From the NCBI GenBank assembly GCA_902569105.1, contig CACFTE010000001.1, positions 1 through 64,000 on the forward strand: a stretch of 64,000 nt of DNA, written 5' to 3'. Made by a program: the position numbers and the translations under genes. Within the stretch, counting starts at the first letter, position 1; each line of letters begins with the position of its first letter. The notes under the pieces are model-generated. The model saw only the letters and a program-made list of their open reading frames with translations. It had not been told where the DNA came from and did not search any database. Below are positions 18,507-25,708 of the stretch, piece after piece. This DNA is from an uncultured Pelagibacteraceae bacterium. Lineage in GTDB: Bacteria; Pseudomonadota; Alphaproteobacteria; Pelagibacterales; Pelagibacteraceae.

Positions 18507-19907
18507 ATGTCAGAAAAATTTGATGCAGTTGTAATAGGTGGTGGTCCAGGAGGTTATGTTTGTGCAATTAGACTAGCTCAACTTGGAAAAAAAACAGCTT
18601 GCATAGAGTCAAGAGGATCTCTAGGTGGCACATGTTTAAATGTAGGATGTATTCCTTCAAAAAGTCTATTAAATTTGTCTGAAAATTTTCATAAGGCAAA
18701 AAACTTTGATAAAATTGGAATTGAGTTAGGCTCTTTAAAACTTAATCTTCCAAAGATGATGAAAAATAAAGAAAAAGCAGTAACAGTTTTAACTAAAGGT
18801 ATCGAGTTTTTATTTAAAAAAAATAAAGTTACCTATTTTAAAGGAATAGGTTCAATCATAGGAAATAATCAAATATCTTTGAAATCTGCTGATAATAAAG
18901 AAGAGAAGATAGAGACAAAAAATATTATTATAGCAACAGGTTCTGATCCAGTATCTCTGCCTGGTATTAAGTTTGATGAAGAAAAAATAGTTTCATCTAC
19001 GGGGGCACTTTCATTAAAAGAGGTTCCTAAAAAATTGGTCGTAGTTGGTGGTGGATATATTGGTCTTGAAATGGGATCAGTTTGGTCAAGACTTGGATCT
19101 GAAGTTCAAGTTGTTGAATTTCTTGATCACATAACGCCTGGCATGGATAAAGAAATATCTAATGAATTTCAAAAATTATTGAAGAAACAAGGAATAAATT
19201 TTAACTTAAAATTAAAAGTTGAGTCAATTTCAAAAAATAATAATGGAGTTACAGTAAATACGACTGATGAAAATGGTAATAAAAATAAATTTGATTGTGA
19301 TGTAGTTCTTGTTTCAGTTGGTAGAAAACCTAATACTAGCAATTTAAGCTTAGATAAAGTTGGAGTTGAAAAAGATAAAAAAGGTAGAATTAAAGTAAAT
19401 AATAATTTTCAAACAAATATTAAAAATATATTTGCGATCGGTGATGTCATTGAGGGTCCAATGTTAGCTCATAAAGCTGAAGAGGAAGGAATAGCAGTAG
19501 CAGAGATCATTGCTGGACAGTCTGGTCATGTAAATTATGATACAATACCAGGGGTAATTTATACATCGCCAGAAGTGGCATCTATCGGTAAAACAGAAGA
19601 ACAGCTCAAAGAAAAAAAAGTAGATTATAAAGTAGGAAAATTTCCTTTCATGGCAAACTCAAGAGCAAAAGCAATTGATGAACCAGAGGGTTTTGTTAAA
19701 ATATTAGCAGATTCTAAAACTGATAGAGTTCTTGGAGTGCATATGATTGGCCCTCATGCCGGTGAACTCATTGCAGAAATGTCTGTTGCTATGGAATTTG
19801 GTGCGAGTTCTGAGGATATAGCGCGAACTTGTCATGCTCATCCTACTTTCTCAGAAGCTGTAAAAGAAGCAGCATTATCAGTTGATAAACGACAGATCCA
19901 TTCTTAG
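18507..19907 (+). CDS. lpdA: Dihydrolipoyl dehydrogenase (E3)
   Basis: Flavoprotein that reoxidises dihydrolipoamide in 2-oxoacid dehydrogenase complexes with NAD; 466 residues. Present are the FAD loop VIGGGPGGYVCAIRLA, the redox-active disulfide in GGTCLNVGCIPSKSLL, the NAD loop VVGGGYIGLEMGSVW, and the C-terminal catalytic HAHPTFSEAVKEA. It ends the long plus-strand metabolic directon and probably serves 2-oxoglutarate dehydrogenase; sharing with other complexes cannot be excluded. Confidence 0.97.
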   Translation: MSEKFDAVVIGGGPGGYVCAIRLAQLGKKTACIESRGSLGGTCLNVGCIPSKSLLNLSENFHKAKNFDKIGIELGSLKLNLPKMMKNKEKAVTVLTKGIEFLFKKNKVTYFKGIGSIIGNNQISLKSADNKEEKIETKNIIIATGSDPVSLPGIKFDEEKIVSSTGALSLKEVPKKLVVVGGGYIGLEMGSVWSRLGSEVQVVEFLDHITPGMDKEISNEFQKLLKKQGINFNLKLKVESISKNNNGVTVNTTDENGNKNKFDCDVVLVSVGRKPNTSNLSLDKVGVEKDKKGRIKVNNNFQTNIKNIFAIGDVIEGPMLAHKAEEEGIAVAEIIAGQSGHVNYDTIPGVIYTSPEVASIGKTEEQLKEKKVDYKVGKFPFMANSRAKAIDEPEGFVKILADSKTDRVLGVHMIGPHAGELIAEMSVAMEFGASSEDIARTCHAHPTFSEAVKEAALSVDKRQIHS

Positions 19908-19945
19908 TCTTCTTAATTAATTACATTTATTATAATTTAAAATGA

Positions 19946-19951
19946 TATAAT
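19946..19951 (+). promoter_or_regulatory. Extended -10 element, predicted leaderless start
   Basis: TATAAT at 19946-19951 preceded by TG at 19943-19944 (TGnTATAAT) is a consensus extended -10. It ends 8 nt before the ATG at 19960, so the transcript should start at or within 1-2 nt of the start codon. There is no Shine-Dalgarno and no strong -35. Confidence 0.5.
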
Positions 19952-19959
19952 CTCTAATA

Positions 19960-20280
19960 ATGGCTAGAATTAAAAAATCAAAAGATAATTTCTTTGTAAG
20001 GTTCTGGAATGGACAACTTTCTCTTCCAATGTCCTATTGGGGCGTTGGTGTAGGCATCGGAATGCTTTATACGTTTCTAGTATTGATTATCATACTAGGT
20101 CTTGGAATGAGCGACGATGCGATGTGGGGTTTTGTAATTCCATTTCAAATTTATACTGTTGTTGGAATTTGGAGATCATCTGACAAATATAAAGGACCTA
20201 AATTTTGGGCAATACTAGCAAAAATAGCTGTTGTGTTAGGAATAATTTCTAATTTTGCTTCAATGTTAACTGGCTATTAA
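19960..20280 (+). CDS. Small integral membrane protein, unknown function
   Basis: 106 residues; I do not recognise the family. After a basic N terminus (MARIKKSKD) come aromatic residues and about three hydrophobic segments (roughly 28-50, 55-70 and 84-104) joined by a charged loop (WRSSDKYKGPKFWA). The pattern suggests an inner-membrane protein with the N terminus inside. It is monocistronic: it has its own extended -10 and a strong bidirectional terminator follows at 20324. Coding is supported by the clean frame, promoter and terminator. It may be a clade-specific protein. Confidence 0.75.
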   Translation: MARIKKSKDNFFVRFWNGQLSLPMSYWGVGVGIGMLYTFLVLIIILGLGMSDDAMWGFVIPFQIYTVVGIWRSSDKYKGPKFWAILAKIAVVLGIISNFASMLTGY

Positions 20281-20323
20281 TTTTAAATTATAGTTTTATT
20301 TTAAAACATATAATTTTTTATTA

Positions 20324-20344
20324 GCCCCTCAATTAATGAGGGGC
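20324..20344. terminator. Bidirectional hairpin terminator
   Basis: Perfect 8-bp inverted repeat GCCCCTCA / TGAGGGGC with a 5-nt loop. On the plus strand it is followed by AATGTTTTATTT; on the minus strand by TAATAAAAAATT. It lies between the converging genes at 19960 and 20358 and is the most GC-rich hairpin I noticed in the noncoding DNA of this window. Confidence 0.8.
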
Positions 20345-20357
20345 AATGTTTTATTTA

Positions 20358-20483
20358 TTAATAATCGTAACAGTAAGTTGTACAGCTATTACCATAACAG
20401 CTGGTAGTACAATAAGAATATCCCGCTATAGCATTTCCACTTAGCAATGTAAGGATACCCAGCATAAGTCCTATTTTTTTCAT
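20358..20483 (-). CDS. Exported Cys/Tyr-rich microprotein, unknown function
   Basis: 41 residues. The start at 20483 is chosen because a full AAAGGAGG Shine-Dalgarno sits just before the ATG; upstream in-frame codons look non-coding. Residues 1-20 form a signal peptide (MKKIGLMLGILTLLSGNAIA) with a signal peptidase I-like AIA end. The mature part is only about 21 residues, rich in Tyr, Thr and Ser, with four cysteines spaced CX3CX4CX3C. No lipobox is seen. The spacing suggests two disulfides or metal binding. It faces the bidirectional terminator at 20324 and is divergent from the gene at 20621. Confidence 0.75.
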   Translation of the reverse strand: MKKIGLMLGILTLLSGNAIAGYSYCTTSCYGNSCTTYCYDY

Positions 20484-20552
20484 TTTTCCTCCTTTGTTAA
20501 AAATAAGATAATCATGCTTAAAAATATTTGTATGTGAAAAGCGATAGTAAAT

Positions 20553-20593
20553 ATTGGACAAATCCACAATTATATAGATTTTATTTGTCCAAT
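20553..20593. repeat. Perfect 11-bp dyad in a divergent intergenic region
   Basis: ATTGGACAAAT (20553-20563) is repeated as its exact inverse complement ATTTGTCCAAT (20583-20593) around a 19-nt spacer. It sits between the divergent microprotein (start 20483) and the gene at 20621. It could be an operator for a dimeric regulator. As a plus-strand hairpin followed by T5 it could instead be a weak terminator. Confidence 0.6.
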
Positions 20594-20620
20594 TTTTCAG
20601 TTAGAATTTCTTATATAAAA

Positions 20621-21082
20621 ATGGCAAAGCTAAGAGAAATTTCATCTATAGAACACGGGCTAACAGAAGCTATAAAAAATCTTAAATCAAAAGTAATTGA
20701 GGAAGTAACAGGAAAAAGCGAGTCTTTTTTGAGAAAGTGCAGTGATCCAGATTTAGACCAACAGCTAGACCACAGAGATGCTGTAAAAATTGATAAAGCA
20801 TGTGTTCAAAAAGGTTTAACACCTTATCTATTAAGAGCACATGAATATATTATTCAAAAAGAGCTTAAAAACGTTGTAACCGACCAAAAAGACTTAAATG
20901 AACTTTTAACAAAATTTACTATTTTACATGGTCAATTACTATCTGTTATTAATTCTGCAAAAAGTAGTAGCGGTCATAAAGGAGAACAAATTTCATCAGT
21001 TGAAAAAAAGGATATTTTTGAAGCTTTTGAGGCACTAGAAAATAAAATCCACAAAATTAAAACAACAATTGAAAGCAGTTAA
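20621..21082 (+). CDS. Putative helix-turn-helix-type protein, unknown function
   Basis: 153 residues from the ATG at 20621; the frame is open further upstream, but that stretch runs through the dyad and looks non-coding. The segment around residues 20-60 (LKSKVIEEVTGKSESFLRKC, then SDPDLDQQLDHRDAVKIDKA) resembles small HTH proteins related to phage CII-type regulators, where a Ser/Leu-Arg helix is followed by SDPD; I regard this as a weak resemblance. The C-terminal half is helical and charged, possibly coiled coil. It overlaps the next gene (PrsW-like) by 1 nt, so an operon is likely. It may regulate the locus through the dyad at 20553. Confidence 0.7.
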   Translation: MAKLREISSIEHGLTEAIKNLKSKVIEEVTGKSESFLRKCSDPDLDQQLDHRDAVKIDKACVQKGLTPYLLRAHEYIIQKELKNVVTDQKDLNELLTKFTILHGQLLSVINSAKSSSGHKGEQISSVEKKDIFEAFEALENKIHKIKTTIESS

Positions 21083-21765
21083 TGTCGCTTCTTCTAGTAA
21101 CAATTCTGCCATCAATCTTAATAGTTCTTTTCTTTGTTAAGTCAGATAAATTTAAAGAACCAAATAAAGAAATCATAAAAGTTTTTTTTCTGGGAATTTT
21201 AATCACAATTCCAGCTTATTTTTTAAACACATATCTAAGTGAAATTTGGTATACTACAAATGCCAGCGAAGGACTTATCTCATCATTTCTTACAGCAGCA
21301 CCAGTAGAAGAAGGTTTAAAATTATCAGTTTTGTATTTCTTTGTTTATAAAATGAAAGATTTCAATGAGCCTATAGATGGTATTGTTTATGGGGTAACCG
21401 TATCACTTGGTTTTGCAACTTTGGAAAATATTTATTATGTTTATCTTTTAGCAGATTACTTTGAAACAACTTCTATGGCACTTGCTATTTTAAGATCTTT
21501 TTCTGCAATACCTGCCCACGCTATTTTTGGAGTATTTATGGGTTATTTCTTTATGAAATACGCATTTATAAAAAAGGGTGATAATTTAATTTTTGCATTT
21601 GTAATACCTTTTGTTTTACATGGTTGTTACAATTTATTTGCGTCCTCAAATTTTATAATTTCACTAATATTGATATTAATTGCATGGATTGTAGCTTTAA
21701 GAATGTTTTCGAGACTAAAAAAAACTCAAAAGACAAAACGAAGAGAATATGAAAAAAAGTTATAA
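21082..21765 (+). CDS. PrsW-family intramembrane metalloprotease
   Basis: 227-residue polytopic membrane protein with about seven hydrophobic segments and a basic C-terminal tail (RLKKTQKTKRREYEKKL). The family's conserved polar residues inside membrane segments are present: Glu76-Glu77 in APVEEGLKLS, Glu115-Asn116 in FATLENIYYV, His146 in PAHAIFG and His180 in LHGCYN. Relatives include the site-1 protease PrsW, which cuts the anti-sigma factor RsiW in Bacillus. No anti-sigma factor is visible here. It overlaps the downstream channel gene by 17 nt, implying coupled expression; the substrate is unknown. Confidence 0.87.
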   Translation: MSLLLVTILPSILIVLFFVKSDKFKEPNKEIIKVFFLGILITIPAYFLNTYLSEIWYTTNASEGLISSFLTAAPVEEGLKLSVLYFFVYKMKDFNEPIDGIVYGVTVSLGFATLENIYYVYLLADYFETTSMALAILRSFSAIPAHAIFGVFMGYFFMKYAFIKKGDNLIFAFVIPFVLHGCYNLFASSNFIISLILILIAWIVALRMFSRLKKTQKTKRREYEKKL

Positions 21766-23314
21766 ACTAAAAAATTATTTAAAGAAATTATTTTTAGTTT
21801 TACTTTTGATTTCCTTTCAAAATATTACTTTTTCTGAGGAAAATTTTTATGAGGAAGATGAAATTGTTGCCTGTTCCAATTTTTATGATGCTGTAAAAAA
21901 TAGCAGCAACCCTAGAGTGAAAAACCTTTTTCCTAGATATTTATATAATGATTTTGGTTTTAAAATAAAAATCTTCGATAATGACGGTGAATGGACAGCA
22001 TTTAGAGATGAATATGGAAATATTAAAATTGGTGAGGTTTACTCTTATAAGGCGCTAGACCTCATAAAGCCAGAAGATAGCATTGTAAATATTAATGGGG
22101 AAAAACTTGAAACTTTAGATCAGTTTTATTCTATAGCATATTCTGAAGAGGTAGAAATACTTAGACTTGATTTGTTAAATCAAAATGGAGAATCTTATCA
22201 AGCAACAATAGAGTCACATAATAACGGTTATTCATTTATTGATTATAGTTTAGAGGATATTTATATCTCAGATATAGATATTAAAAAGGGTACAACAACA
22301 TTTACCCTAAGGGAGTCTTTTCAATTTAATTTTGATTTAGAAAATAATGATAATGAAAATTTACATCCATTACATGCGCTTGCAAAAAAATATCTTATCG
22401 ATACTAAAGATGAAGATAATCCTTTCATTCATGTTTGTAAACCAACAATAAAGGAATTTAAATATTCAGGATTAGTAGATCCATTAGACAACGATACTTT
22501 AAGTTTAGTAAAATCTGATCAAGATTTAATTCAAAACTCATACAAGATCACCCCTTACCTCGCGCCATTTAATAGTTATGACAATGTAAGAGTTTCAAAT
22601 AAGAGGATAAGTGTTCAAACCGTTAGAAATCAGTTTAATCTAAGATCCTTTCCATTTGATAAACAAACTATTAAGTATCAAATAGGAAACGGTACATATG
22701 AAGTTGATAATATATTGTTTTGGTCACAAGCGTTTACAATAAAAACTTTAAATGACTTTATGAAACTTGACGATATTTCAGGATGGAAAAAAAATAAATA
22801 TGATATCAAAAGAATTTTACATCGAGACACAGTTGATGTAGTGGGTCAATATAGAGATGGAATAAGTATTGAAATAGAGTTAGAGAGGAAACATGGATAT
22901 TATATTTTTAAAGTAATTTTACCAATTATTTTAATTTTATCAGTATGCTGGTCTGTAGTTTGGGTTGATCCAAGAGAATTAGAGGCAAGATTAACAATAA
23001 CTATTGTTTGTTTACTATCATTAATTGCATACAATTTTGTGATTGATGCTGAATTACCAAAACTGGAGTATCTCACAGTTTTAGATTGGATAGTTTTAAT
23101 TTCTTATTTTTATGCAACTGTGCCTAACTTTTTGAGTATAATTTCGTTTAGACTTCAAAAAACAAATTTGAAATTAAGTAATCAACTTGAAATAGTTAGC
23201 AAAAGGTATGGACTTTCCTCTTATGTTTTAAGTATTTTTATAATTGTTTGGATAAATGCGTTTTCAAATCCTGATAACTCAAGTAGCCTTATAAGTTGGA
23301 TGGTTCCTTATTAG
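21749..23314 (+). CDS. Pentameric ligand-gated ion channel (Cys-loop-like) with N-terminal PDZ-like domain
   Basis: 521 residues. A signal peptide covers residues 1-29. Residues ~70-156 look like a PDZ domain (KPEDSIVNINGEKLETLDQF followed by paired strands). An extracellular ligand-binding domain (~230-383) holds the hallmark loop FNLRSFPFDKQ (297-306) without flanking disulfide Cys, as in other bacterial members. Four TM helices follow: M1 384-405 with the conserved Pro392, M2 ~412-433 beginning RELEARLTIT, M3 ~442-468 and M4 ~488-507. The M1-M2 region recalls ELIC/GLIC-type channels, and the acidic residue at the start of M2 suggests cation selectivity. It is 17 nt inside the PrsW gene. 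Ligand and partner are unknown. Confidence 0.88.
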   Translation: MKKSYKLKNYLKKLFLVLLLISFQNITFSEENFYEEDEIVACSNFYDAVKNSSNPRVKNLFPRYLYNDFGFKIKIFDNDGEWTAFRDEYGNIKIGEVYSYKALDLIKPEDSIVNINGEKLETLDQFYSIAYSEEVEILRLDLLNQNGESYQATIESHNNGYSFIDYSLEDIYISDIDIKKGTTTFTLRESFQFNFDLENNDNENLHPLHALAKKYLIDTKDEDNPFIHVCKPTIKEFKYSGLVDPLDNDTLSLVKSDQDLIQNSYKITPYLAPFNSYDNVRVSNKRISVQTVRNQFNLRSFPFDKQTIKYQIGNGTYEVDNILFWSQAFTIKTLNDFMKLDDISGWKKNKYDIKRILHRDTVDVVGQYRDGISIEIELERKHGYYIFKVILPIILILSVCWSVVWVDPRELEARLTITIVCLLSLIAYNFVIDAELPKLEYLTVLDWIVLISYFYATVPNFLSIISFRLQKTNLKLSNQLEIVSKRYGLSSYVLSIFIIVWINAFSNPDNSSSLISWMVPY

Positions 23315-23421
23315 TAAAAAATATATTGAACGTAAGTATAAATTACGAAAATGCTTCAACAATGTTTTCTTGGATGACAGGCTAGAAATATAATTGTCCA
23401 ATTTAATAAATCTTATTTCAC

Positions 23422-23460
23422 ATGAAATTTAAAAAAGTAAATCTTATATTAATTCTGTAA
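23422..23460 (+). other. Possible 12-codon leader peptide ORF
   Basis: An ATG opens 12 codons (MKFKKVNLILIL) ending in TAA at 23458-23460. The stop lies in the 5' arm of the hairpin at 23454. There is no clear Shine-Dalgarno. It may be a regulatory uORF for the 47-residue protein, a decayed signal peptide, or chance. Confidence 0.25.
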
Positions 23461-23478
23461 GGCAAAAAGCTTTACAGA
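23454..23478 (+). promoter_or_regulatory. Hairpin overlapping the ribosome-binding region of the 47-aa gene
   Basis: TCTGTAA (23454-23460) and its exact inverse complement TTACAGA (23472-23478) flank an 11-nt loop. The 3' arm runs into AGAAAGGA, the Shine-Dalgarno of the ATG at 23490, so folding could restrict ribosome access. The 5' arm contains the stop codon of a 12-codon ORF. Confidence 0.4.
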
Positions 23479-23489
23479 AAGGATAAAAG

Positions 23490-23633
23490 ATGACTTTGAA
23501 GCAATACTTAATAGCTGGTGTAATAGAGCAAGCTATAGTTCTAGGAGTGATTTTACCAGCTACAGGATGGTGGTTTAGCTTTTTTGCTCTAACTGCTGTT
23601 TGGAACTTAGTTGCTGGTGGATTTGGCAAGTAA
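23490..23633 (+). CDS. Small hydrophobic membrane protein, unknown function
   Basis: 47 residues: MTLKQYLIAG, then two hydrophobic stretches (about 6-24 and 28-45) split by the turn PATGWW, ending in GGFGK. AGAAAGGA gives a fair Shine-Dalgarno 6-7 nt before the ATG. A hairpin precedes it and a stable stem-loop follows at 23655, giving it the layout of a self-contained small transcript. I do not recognise a family. Coding is inferred from signals and hydrophobic pattern only. Confidence 0.55.
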   Translation: MTLKQYLIAGVIEQAIVLGVILPATGWWFSFFALTAVWNLVAGGFGK

Positions 23634-23654
23634 CTATGTGTGGTTTAAAAAGAT

Positions 23655-23684
23655 AGATCTGGGAGAAATACAGCTCCCAGGTCT
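23655..23684 (+). terminator. Stem-loop after the 47-aa gene, probable terminator
   Basis: AGATCTGGGAG pairs with CTCCCAGGTCT (11 bp with one G-U pair) around an 8-nt loop. The downstream U-run is poor (AAAATATTAATTT), so termination efficiency is doubtful; it may protect an mRNA 3' end. Together with the rest of 23315-23749 I see only the small ORFs, the hairpins and a TTGTCCAATTT copy at 23394. Confidence 0.5.
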
Positions 23685-23749
23685 AAAATATTAATTTATA
23701 ACTCTTTGTTTTTATATATTCTTGACAATTAAAGAATCGCCTAAAATTA

Positions 23750-25708
23750 ATGAAAATACCTGTTTTATTACCCAACATATTTGATCATCCTTTTACGTAT
23801 GAGTCAGATAAAAAGATTGAAGTTGGCAAATACGTATTGGTTCCATTTGGAAAAACAGATGCTATAGGCGTAGTATGGGATCAATTCGAAAAAGAAAAAA
23901 ATAACAAAAAGTTTAAAGTAAAAAAAATAAAAAAAATATTTAATGTCAATAAACTCAATGAAAATTCTATAAAATTTTTAAACTGGTTTTCAGAATATAA
24001 TATTGTGCCAAAGGGTATGGCTTTAAAGCTTCATTTATTAAGCAGTGAAGCAATAGAAGATTTAAAAGAAAAGGAATATCTGAAATTTAATGAAAAACTA
24101 CAATCCAATAAATATGAATTAAGTAAAGAACAAAATGATGCATACAAAGATTTAATTCAAAAGGATCATAAATTTAGAACACATGTACTTCAAGGAACAA
24201 CAGGATCAGGTAAAACAATAGTATACTTTAATGCAATTAAGAAAAAAATTGAGCAAGGACATCAGGCATTAATTTTATTGCCTGAAATAGGTTTAACAAA
24301 TGATTTTGAAAAAAAATTTATAGATTTTTTTGGTTTTAGACCTGCTATTTGGCATTCATCTGTAACAAAAAAAAATAAAAAAATTATCTGGAGTGGACTA
24401 GCTTCTAATAAAATTAAAGTAGTTATTGGTGCTAGATCAGCTTTATTCTTACCATTTAAAAATTTAGGATTAATAACGGTCGATGAAGAGCACGATCAAT
24501 CATATAAACAAGATGAAGGAGTTATTTATAATGCTCGTGATATGGCAATTTCGAGAGCAAAGTTTGAGAATTTACCTATCAATCTGATAAGTGCAGTTCC
24601 TTCTGTAGAAACGTACAATAACATCAAACTAAAAAAATATGAATACTCAAGAATATTGAATAGATATAAAGATGCTAATTTACCAGATCATGAGATCATT
24701 GATTTAAAAAAATATAGTTTAGAAAAACAAAAATGGATTTCTCCAAAAACAATTGAAAAAGTAAAATCCCATCTGGATAAAGGAGATCAGGTTTTGTTTT
24801 TTTTAAATAGAAGAGGATTTTCTCCTTTTGTATTATGCAAAAAGTGTATCAATGTTTTTTCCTGTCCTAATTGTTCAATAAATCTTGTCTATCACAAAAA
24901 AAATAATCAAATGCTCTGTCACTATTGCGGACATAAAACAGGGATGGATAGAAATTGTGTTGATGGAAAAAAATGTGATTTAGCTTTTTCTGGTCCAGGA
25001 GTTGAAAAAATATCAGAGGAAGTAGAATCTATTTTCTCAGAATATAAATCAGTAATTTTTTCTAGTGATACAATGAATAAAAAATCATCTATAAAAATTT
25101 TGGATGATATAATTGGAAATAAAATTAATATACTTATCGGAACTCAAATGGTTTCTAAAGGATTTCATTTTCCCAATTTAAATTGCGTTGTTGTTTTAGA
25201 TATTGACTTAACATCCCAAGGACATGATTTACGTGCGGCAGAAAAAAATTTGCAATTATACCACCAACTTTCTGGTAGAGCAGGTAGAGCTGGAAAACCT
25301 GCTAAAGTTTATTTTCAAACTTATAATATGAACTCAGATGTAATTTCTCAAATTACTGATGAAGATCCATTTTTATTTTTAGATAAAGAATTAATCCTAA
25401 GAAAAAACTACTCACTGCCACCATTTGAAAGATTTATAGGTATAATAATTACATCACCAGACGAGGATAAATTAAAAAAAGAGTCATTTGTAATACAAGA
25501 AAAATTAAACAAAAATTTAAATTGTAAAGTTCTTGGACCTGTAGAGGCTCCAATATTTAAAATTAACAAGAATTATAGAAACAGAATTTTAATAAGATCT
25601 AAAAAGGAAATGAATATTCAAAAAAAATTGTCTGAAATTCTAAAGATCCATAAGTCTACAAGTGGAATAAAACTAATAGTTGATGTTGACCCAATTAGCT
25701 TCAATTAG
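23750..25708 (+). CDS. priA: Primosomal protein N' (replication restart helicase PriA)
   Basis: DEAH-type 3'-5' helicase that reloads the replisome at stalled forks; 652 residues. It has the PriA DNA-binding N terminus (VLLPNIFDHPFTYES), Walker A GTTGSGKT, the DEEHD box, paired zinc-binding cysteines from ~367 (CKKC, CPNC, CHYC), and the C-terminal helicase motif LSGRAGRAGKP. The last zinc pair is CVDGKKC instead of the usual CPxC. A TTGACA at 23722 could be a -35 but no well-spaced -10 is apparent. It lies 105 nt before the ATP synthase genes. Confidence 0.95.
   Translation: MKIPVLLPNIFDHPFTYESDKKIEVGKYVLVPFGKTDAIGVVWDQFEKEKNNKKFKVKKIKKIFNVNKLNENSIKFLNWFSEYNIVPKGMALKLHLLSSEAIEDLKEKEYLKFNEKLQSNKYELSKEQNDAYKDLIQKDHKFRTHVLQGTTGSGKTIVYFNAIKKKIEQGHQALILLPEIGLTNDFEKKFIDFFGFRPAIWHSSVTKKNKKIIWSGLASNKIKVVIGARSALFLPFKNLGLITVDEEHDQSYKQDEGVIYNARDMAISRAKFENLPINLISAVPSVETYNNIKLKKYEYSRILNRYKDANLPDHEIIDLKKYSLEKQKWISPKTIEKVKSHLDKGDQVLFFLNRRGFSPFVLCKKCINVFSCPNCSINLVYHKKNNQMLCHYCGHKTGMDRNCVDGKKCDLAFSGPGVEKISEEVESIFSEYKSVIFSSDTMNKKSSIKILDDIIGNKINILIGTQMVSKGFHFPNLNCVVVLDIDLTSQGHDLRAAEKNLQLYHQLSGRAGRAGKPAKVYFQTYNMNSDVISQITDEDPFLFLDKELILRKNYSLPPFERFIGIIITSPDEDKLKKESFVIQEKLNKNLNCKVLGPVEAPIFKINKNYRNRILIRSKKEMNIQKKLSEILKIHKSTSGIKLIVDVDPISFN

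Follow-up and report, generated by a model that had tools for sequence, protein, structure and literature searches.

A gapless set of three genes on the forward strand of a SAR11 (Pelagibacteraceae) genome is predicted to encode a CII/CP76-like regulator (153 aa), a PrsW-family membrane protease (227 aa) and a pentameric ligand-gated ion channel (pLGIC) subunit with an additional PDZ domain (521 aa), and the linkage between channel and PrsW is real, recurring in other genomes of the order. The repeated set of PDZ channel, protease and regulator points to an undescribed envelope-sensing system. We propose, with a probability of roughly 40%, that the channel is a cation channel whose PDZ domain senses the C-termini of periplasmic peptides, coupled to the protease and the regulator. 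SAR11 are the ocean's most abundant bacteria, and the channel is a relative of the receptor channels of nerve cells; to our knowledge, what bacteria use Cys-loop-type channels for is still unsettled. pLGIC genes in Pelagibacter have been mentioned in passing (PMC4795631), and the open-access literature yielded no PDZ-pLGIC, no link of PrsW or a caspase to a pLGIC and nothing relevant on ligand-gated channels of SAR11.

The window, i.e., the whole 64,000-nucleotide stretch analysed here, belongs to a 1.04 Mb genome that is 84% complete. The operon lies between what we take to be lpd and priA (gene names from our reading of the open reading frames), and its features are as follows.

20621 to 21082, forward strand: 153-aa CII/CP76-like protein, putatively a DNA-binding regulator, encoded by the operon's first gene (PF06892 and PHROG matches)
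21082 to 21765, forward strand: PrsW-family intramembrane protease, 227 aa (PF13367 match, invariant residues)
21749 to 23314, forward strand: predicted 521-aa subunit of a pentameric ligand-gated ion channel with a PDZ domain (profiles, phmmer, AlphaFold2, fold comparison)
21749 to 21835, forward strand: predicted signal peptide, residues 1-29 (hydrophobic N-terminal helix in sequence and model)
21836 to 21901, forward strand: N-terminal helix of the ectodomain, residues 30-51, with the conserved C42 (model; alignment to pLGICs from about residue 33)
21869 to 22783, forward strand: part of the ectodomain, about residues 41-345, that lineages appear to have exchanged (third-position identity to locus L014)
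21920 to 22216, forward strand: predicted PDZ domain, residues 58-156, with a GLGF-like loop, DFGF, at 68-71 (profile, model, fold comparison)
22649 to 22666, forward strand: Pro-loop FPFDKQ, residues 301-306 (P302 and D304 invariant in 44 of 44 channels)
22979 to 23047, forward strand: predicted M2 pore helix, residues 411-433, with E412 at -2' (model; E412 in 42 of 44 channels, L423 in all 44)

The stop codon of the regulator overlaps the PrsW start by 1 nt (TAATG) and the PrsW gene overlaps that of the channel by 17 nt (21749-21765), and a translationally coupled operon is the best explanation for the three genes. The original prediction described a PrsW gene and a 521-residue channel gene with this 17 nt overlap; both reading frames were recovered at these coordinates, and the third gene of the operon, the upstream CII-like regulator, had been overlooked. 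No Rfam match was found in 19800-24000, promoter-like sites did not exceed chance (17 seen, 22.5 expected), and terminator-like hairpins (two seen, 1.2 expected) were given no weight.

By sequence comparison, the channel is a divergent member of the pLGICs. A single-sequence phmmer search retrieved ELIC, GLIC and GABA-A chains (E down to 6.6e-16, for ELIC) over residues 291-464 only, and profile searches matched TIGR00860 (E 8e-15) and NF033918 (E 5e-28), with scores under the curated cut-offs of PF02931/PF02932, NF033918 and TIGR00860, which reflects database thresholds and not a biological feature. The AlphaFold2 model, built from 44 relatives (mean pLDDT 86.6, pTM 0.78), has the pLGIC architecture, i.e., a ligand-binding beta-sandwich and a membrane domain of four helices (382-405, 411-433, 444-472 and 474-506). 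Foldseek aligned it with pLGIC structures at E values down to 4.8e-19, ELIC being the best match and DeCLIC among the matches, and superposition on pLGIC chains covered about 330 residues between positions 33 and 504 with Z 26-27 (for 7qnb_B, VIA Z 26.9, rmsd 2.9 Å, 327 residues). The Cys-loop-type identity, the FPFDKQ loop and the four transmembrane helices that had been read from the sequence alone are all confirmed. P302 and D304 of the Pro-loop and the pre-M1 arginine R380 occur in all 44 channels. We take E412 to be the counterpart of the -2' glutamate of the cation-selective GLIC (aligned by eye and from general knowledge), and given its retention in 42 of the 44 relatives, a cation-selective pore is likely.

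Several lines of evidence support the identification of the extra domain as PDZ. Pfam PDZ models gave no match to the window channel alone and matched up to 15 of the 44 channel relatives (best E 7e-6). A profile of residues 30-172 found the PDZ domains of RseP/S2P, HtrA, SpoIVB, GRIP1 and PSD-95 (E down to 9e-8), the matches listed being PDZ proteins. The same residues, modelled separately (pLDDT 85.2), superimposed on PDZ structures (DegS, CtpB, HtrA2 and others) with Z 9-11 and an rmsd of mostly 2.2-3 Å over about 85 residues. Of 36 PDZ-type channels, 35 have G70 in the GLGF-like carboxylate-binding loop, and in 34 the next residue is F, I or L. The PDZ-like domain had been placed at about 70-156; the fold stands, as it is predicted by AlphaFold2 and recognised by both profile and fold comparison, and the boundaries are better drawn at about 58-156. 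An extra domain is likewise present as foreseen, but probably not as an N-terminal addition: pLGIC chains match the full model from residue 33 on, and the PDZ-less short channels retain both C42 and C230, so the PDZ domain has probably been inserted behind the N-terminal helix, ahead of strand 1 of the ligand-binding domain. C42 and C230 are found together in 41 of the 44 channels (the other three have neither) and may pair. The short PDZ-less channels occur at the same loci as the long ones, and thus PDZ is not essential to every version of the channel.

The protease matches PF13367 over the cut-off (E 2.9e-36) and NF033739 under the equivalog cut-off (E 5e-42; 143.9 bits against 225 bits). 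E76, E77, K80, E115, H146 and H180, i.e., the EExxK and FAxxE motifs and two histidines, are invariant in 17 homologues, in agreement with the earlier description of a PrsW-family protein with all conserved polar residues. A PDB sequence search with PrsW returned no match, and no sigma or anti-sigma gene was recognised in the operon or cassette. The regulator reaches 25.9 bits against a cut-off of 26 for PF06892 (E 1e-5), a family matched by 17 of 21 of its relatives (E up to 0.1, best 3.4e-7), and also matches the PHROG CII-like activator (E 2.7e-4). A CII-like gene is present at most PDZ-channel loci, several of them without PrsW, and upstream of the channel also in G710/G787, which belong to another alphaproteobacterial family.

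Among 150 relatives, 12 carry the channel and 15 carry PrsW. In a sample of 397 genomes of the order the channel clade occurs in 31, PrsW in 47 and both in 24, i.e., PrsW is found in 24 of the 31 genomes with the channel clade versus 23 of the 366 without (Fisher's exact p = 1.5e-19, a value that ignores shared ancestry). All 24 genomes with both genes have them on one contig, at most about 7 kb apart, and in 19 no more than one gene intervenes. PrsW may come first, the channel may come first or the two may be convergent, and by their flanking genes the loci fall into several genomic contexts (contigs are short in some cases). Mapping adjacency to a channel as a label on the PrsW tree requires at least nine changes on well supported branches. 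The co-occurrence survey thus extends the pairing across Pelagibacterales, beyond chance in one strain. The more distant non-PDZ channels of the order have PrsW in only one of 12 genomes, and three PDZ-channel loci (G093, G104 and G101) have no listed protease nearby. A further 385 genomes of the class and 214 of the phylum yielded more distant pLGICs, and the flanks examined, which were short for the phylum genomes, contained no PrsW.

At loci without PrsW, or with PrsW only at a distance, the protease is often a secreted trypsin-like or caspase protein instead. Several channel loci carry a trypsin-like protease (PF13365), and some also a caspase (PF00656) or CHAT (PF12770) domain; such a secreted protease is absent from the window's own locus. 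The recurring theme is therefore a PDZ channel with a protease and a regulator. In two SAR11 relatives (L142:2464-5207 and L131:1216-6070), secreted-looking caspase/CHAT and trypsin-like proteases adjoin PDZ channels and the CII-like gene. Another partner is a putative Tat-exported flavin amine oxidase (PF01593, with a twin-arginine-like N-terminus), found in seven loci (L127, L128, L129, L130, L135, L136 and L143) and in all seven beside a second, short channel without PDZ. Together with the amine gating of ELIC, this arrangement hints that the ligand of the short channel could be an amine. PrsW had correctly been named as a partner of the channel, while the trypsin and caspase alternatives, the amine oxidase and the exchangeable ectodomain (see below) had escaped attention.

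Other arrangements were also seen. At L202:5741-10286 and L208:5573-9710, in what looks like a replacement of the channel module, PrsW and a CII-like gene enclose two membrane proteins of about 280 aa, neither of which matches Pfam, and a secreted Sel1-like protein. Non-PDZ channels lie directly 3' of a TRAP-type (DctP)-like binding-protein gene at L066:5204-7598, L067:5326-7639 and L068:6922-9310. A secreted protein of about 203 aa that matches no Pfam family turns up repeatedly, either between PrsW and the channel or close by (L014:9379-9990, L125:5211-5822), and in several genomes a TerB-like gene and coiled-coil membrane proteins are found near PrsW, with or without the channel (L051:5788-8997, L217:3055-5868, L062:81-1691).

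In comparisons with close relatives, the regulator has a dN/dS of 0.02, PrsW of 0.09 and the channel of 0.17-0.24, supporting purifying selection on all three genes. Against the more distant G042 and G019, the regulator and PrsW are about 79-85% identical and the channel 33-37%; this drop is owing to the ectodomain, which shares 18-31% identity across the relatives compared, while M1-M3 are conserved (70-89%). The comparison with L014 localises the change. From channel codon 41 to codon 360, the two sequences agree at 88-100% of third positions, against mostly 45-85% in the rest of the gene and in the neighbouring genes, and synonymous differences rise from 0.02-0.10 to about 0.4-0.6 at residue 346. 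This is what an ectodomain exchange between lineages would leave, in one clear pair. SAR11 recombines widely, and thus the pair is no proof of selection for exchange. The ectodomain appears to be a fast-changing, exchangeable module on a constant pore.

We envisage the peptide-sensing cation channel to act as follows. Envelope damage or the partner proteases would release peptides into the periplasm, where the PDZ domain would bind their C-termini; this binding, alone or together with a small ligand at the classical site, would gate cation influx. PrsW might trim or degrade the channel or another membrane partner and so set or end the signal, and the CII-like protein, in the cytoplasm, might tune how strongly these genes, or a small regulon, are transcribed. 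The operon would then be an ionotropic counterpart of the DegS/RseP envelope-stress circuit. We favour this reading based on the PDZ fold, the GLGF-like glycine (35 of 36), the glutamate at -2' (42 of 44), the PrsW linkage (24 of 31, against one of 12 for the non-PDZ channels), the varied gene orders and contexts, the trypsin, caspase and CHAT domains at other loci, the low dN/dS and the overlaps of 17 nt and 1 nt. Against it stand the three PDZ-channel loci with no listed protease nearby, the lack at the window's own locus of a secreted protease that could produce ligands for the PDZ, and the short channels at the same loci that do without PDZ. PrsW in Pelagibacterales also adjoins unrelated membrane proteins, and its substrate may therefore be something other than the channel. 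A signalling unit of this general kind had been foreseen; its linked protease and PDZ channel are well supported, and we infer the peptide sensing and the control of the channel by PrsW. More tentatively, and on balance we would not expect it to hold in full, the operon may represent a SAR11 ionotropic sensor of envelope proteolysis, in which peptide C-termini produced by the adjoining PrsW, trypsin-like or caspase proteases gate or modulate the channel through PDZ, and ectodomain specificity is diversified by allele exchange on a constant pore. A recurrent operon of channel, PDZ, membrane protease and regulator suggests a testable cellular role in very abundant bacteria; it may show how receptors of a family known mainly from synapses come to sense peptides, and may also be a case of natural ectodomain exchange on one pore.

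The alternative that survives best, although we deem it unlikely, is a small-molecule chemoreceptor that a solute would gate, most plausibly an amine as for ELIC; PDZ and PrsW would then do no more than hold the receptor in place, help it assemble or control its turnover. Both phmmer and Foldseek rank ELIC chains first among the matches of the channel, ELIC is opened by primary amines (PMC3119659), seven loci have the amine oxidase beside the short channel, and a chemoreceptor role has been proposed for bacterial pLGICs from operons with PBP-II or Cache genes (PMC549065). However, the window locus has no amine oxidase, and solute sensing alone leaves the links to PrsW, trypsin and caspase and the conserved PDZ loop unexplained.

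We are more doubtful of a conflict or cell-death module, in which PrsW, trypsin, caspase or CHAT proteins would activate the channel as a membrane-depolarising effector upon infection or attack, with the CII-like gene as regulator. Caspase, CHAT and trypsin domains do occur at channel loci (those of caspase and trypsin at L142 match PADLOC weakly), polymorphic toxins use PrsW and caspases as processing peptidases (PMC3482391), and both the patchy occurrence and the fast ectodomain exchange would fit. Yet the three window proteins have no PADLOC match at E 0.01, no relatives were found in viral contigs (two scans with few peptide patterns each) or plasmids (protein search), the trypsin-like and caspase proteins look secreted, and the pore is strongly constrained with its gating features intact.

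Less probable again is that PrsW cleaves the channel itself in or near the membrane, leading to inactivation, remodelling or release of the ectodomain, with PDZ only a scaffold. The adjacent genes overlap by 17 nt, both products would reside in the membrane, and cleavage of RsiW in Bacillus begins with PrsW (PMC10202637). Against this, 23 of the 397 genomes have PrsW without the channel and channels exist without PrsW. A chance neighbourhood in a hotspot of accessory genes, without a functional link, suggested by the accessory genes near the set, which differ between relatives, and by the other partners of PrsW and the CII-like gene, is very hard to reconcile with two genes kept close in 24 of 24 genomes in several contexts and orders, with at least nine label changes on well supported PrsW-tree branches, and with the translational overlap and non-PDZ channels mostly without PrsW.

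Returning to the PDZ channel with its protease and regulator, parts of this set have counterparts in known systems. ELIC, GLIC and sTeLIC share with the window channel the ligand-binding domain, the FPFD of the Pro-loop and the four helices (and GLIC the glutamate at -2' of M2), but they have no PDZ, and the papers searched report no PrsW, caspase or CII-like partner for them. DeCLIC is likewise a bacterial pLGIC with an extra periplasmic domain (PMC9897478), which there consists of two jelly-roll lobes before the ectodomain, whereas the window channel has one PDZ domain, which seems to sit as an insert behind its first helix. An earlier survey describes bacterial pLGICs with PBP or Cache partners, their sensory domains being either fused to the channel or encoded next to it (Tasneem et al. 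2004, PMC549065), and the DctP-linked non-PDZ channels resemble the PBP-linked pLGICs of that survey, which mentions neither PDZ nor protease (0 times each). The polymorphic-toxin PrsW and caspase-like peptidases process partner proteins (PMC3482391) and are of kinds also found at the channel loci; unlike in those systems, there is no toxin domain and the partner of the peptidase is an ion channel. With PrsW/RsiW/sigma-W of Bacillus subtilis the operon has the PF13367 membrane protease in common, but no sigma or anti-sigma gene is recognised and the score is under the NCBI PrsW equivalog cut-off. In DegS and RseP of the sigma-E envelope response, as proposed here, a periplasmic PDZ is coupled to regulated membrane proteolysis, and the PDZ of DegS superimposes on the predicted window PDZ with a Z of about 10; there, the PDZ is on the protease, whereas in the window operon it is on an ion channel.
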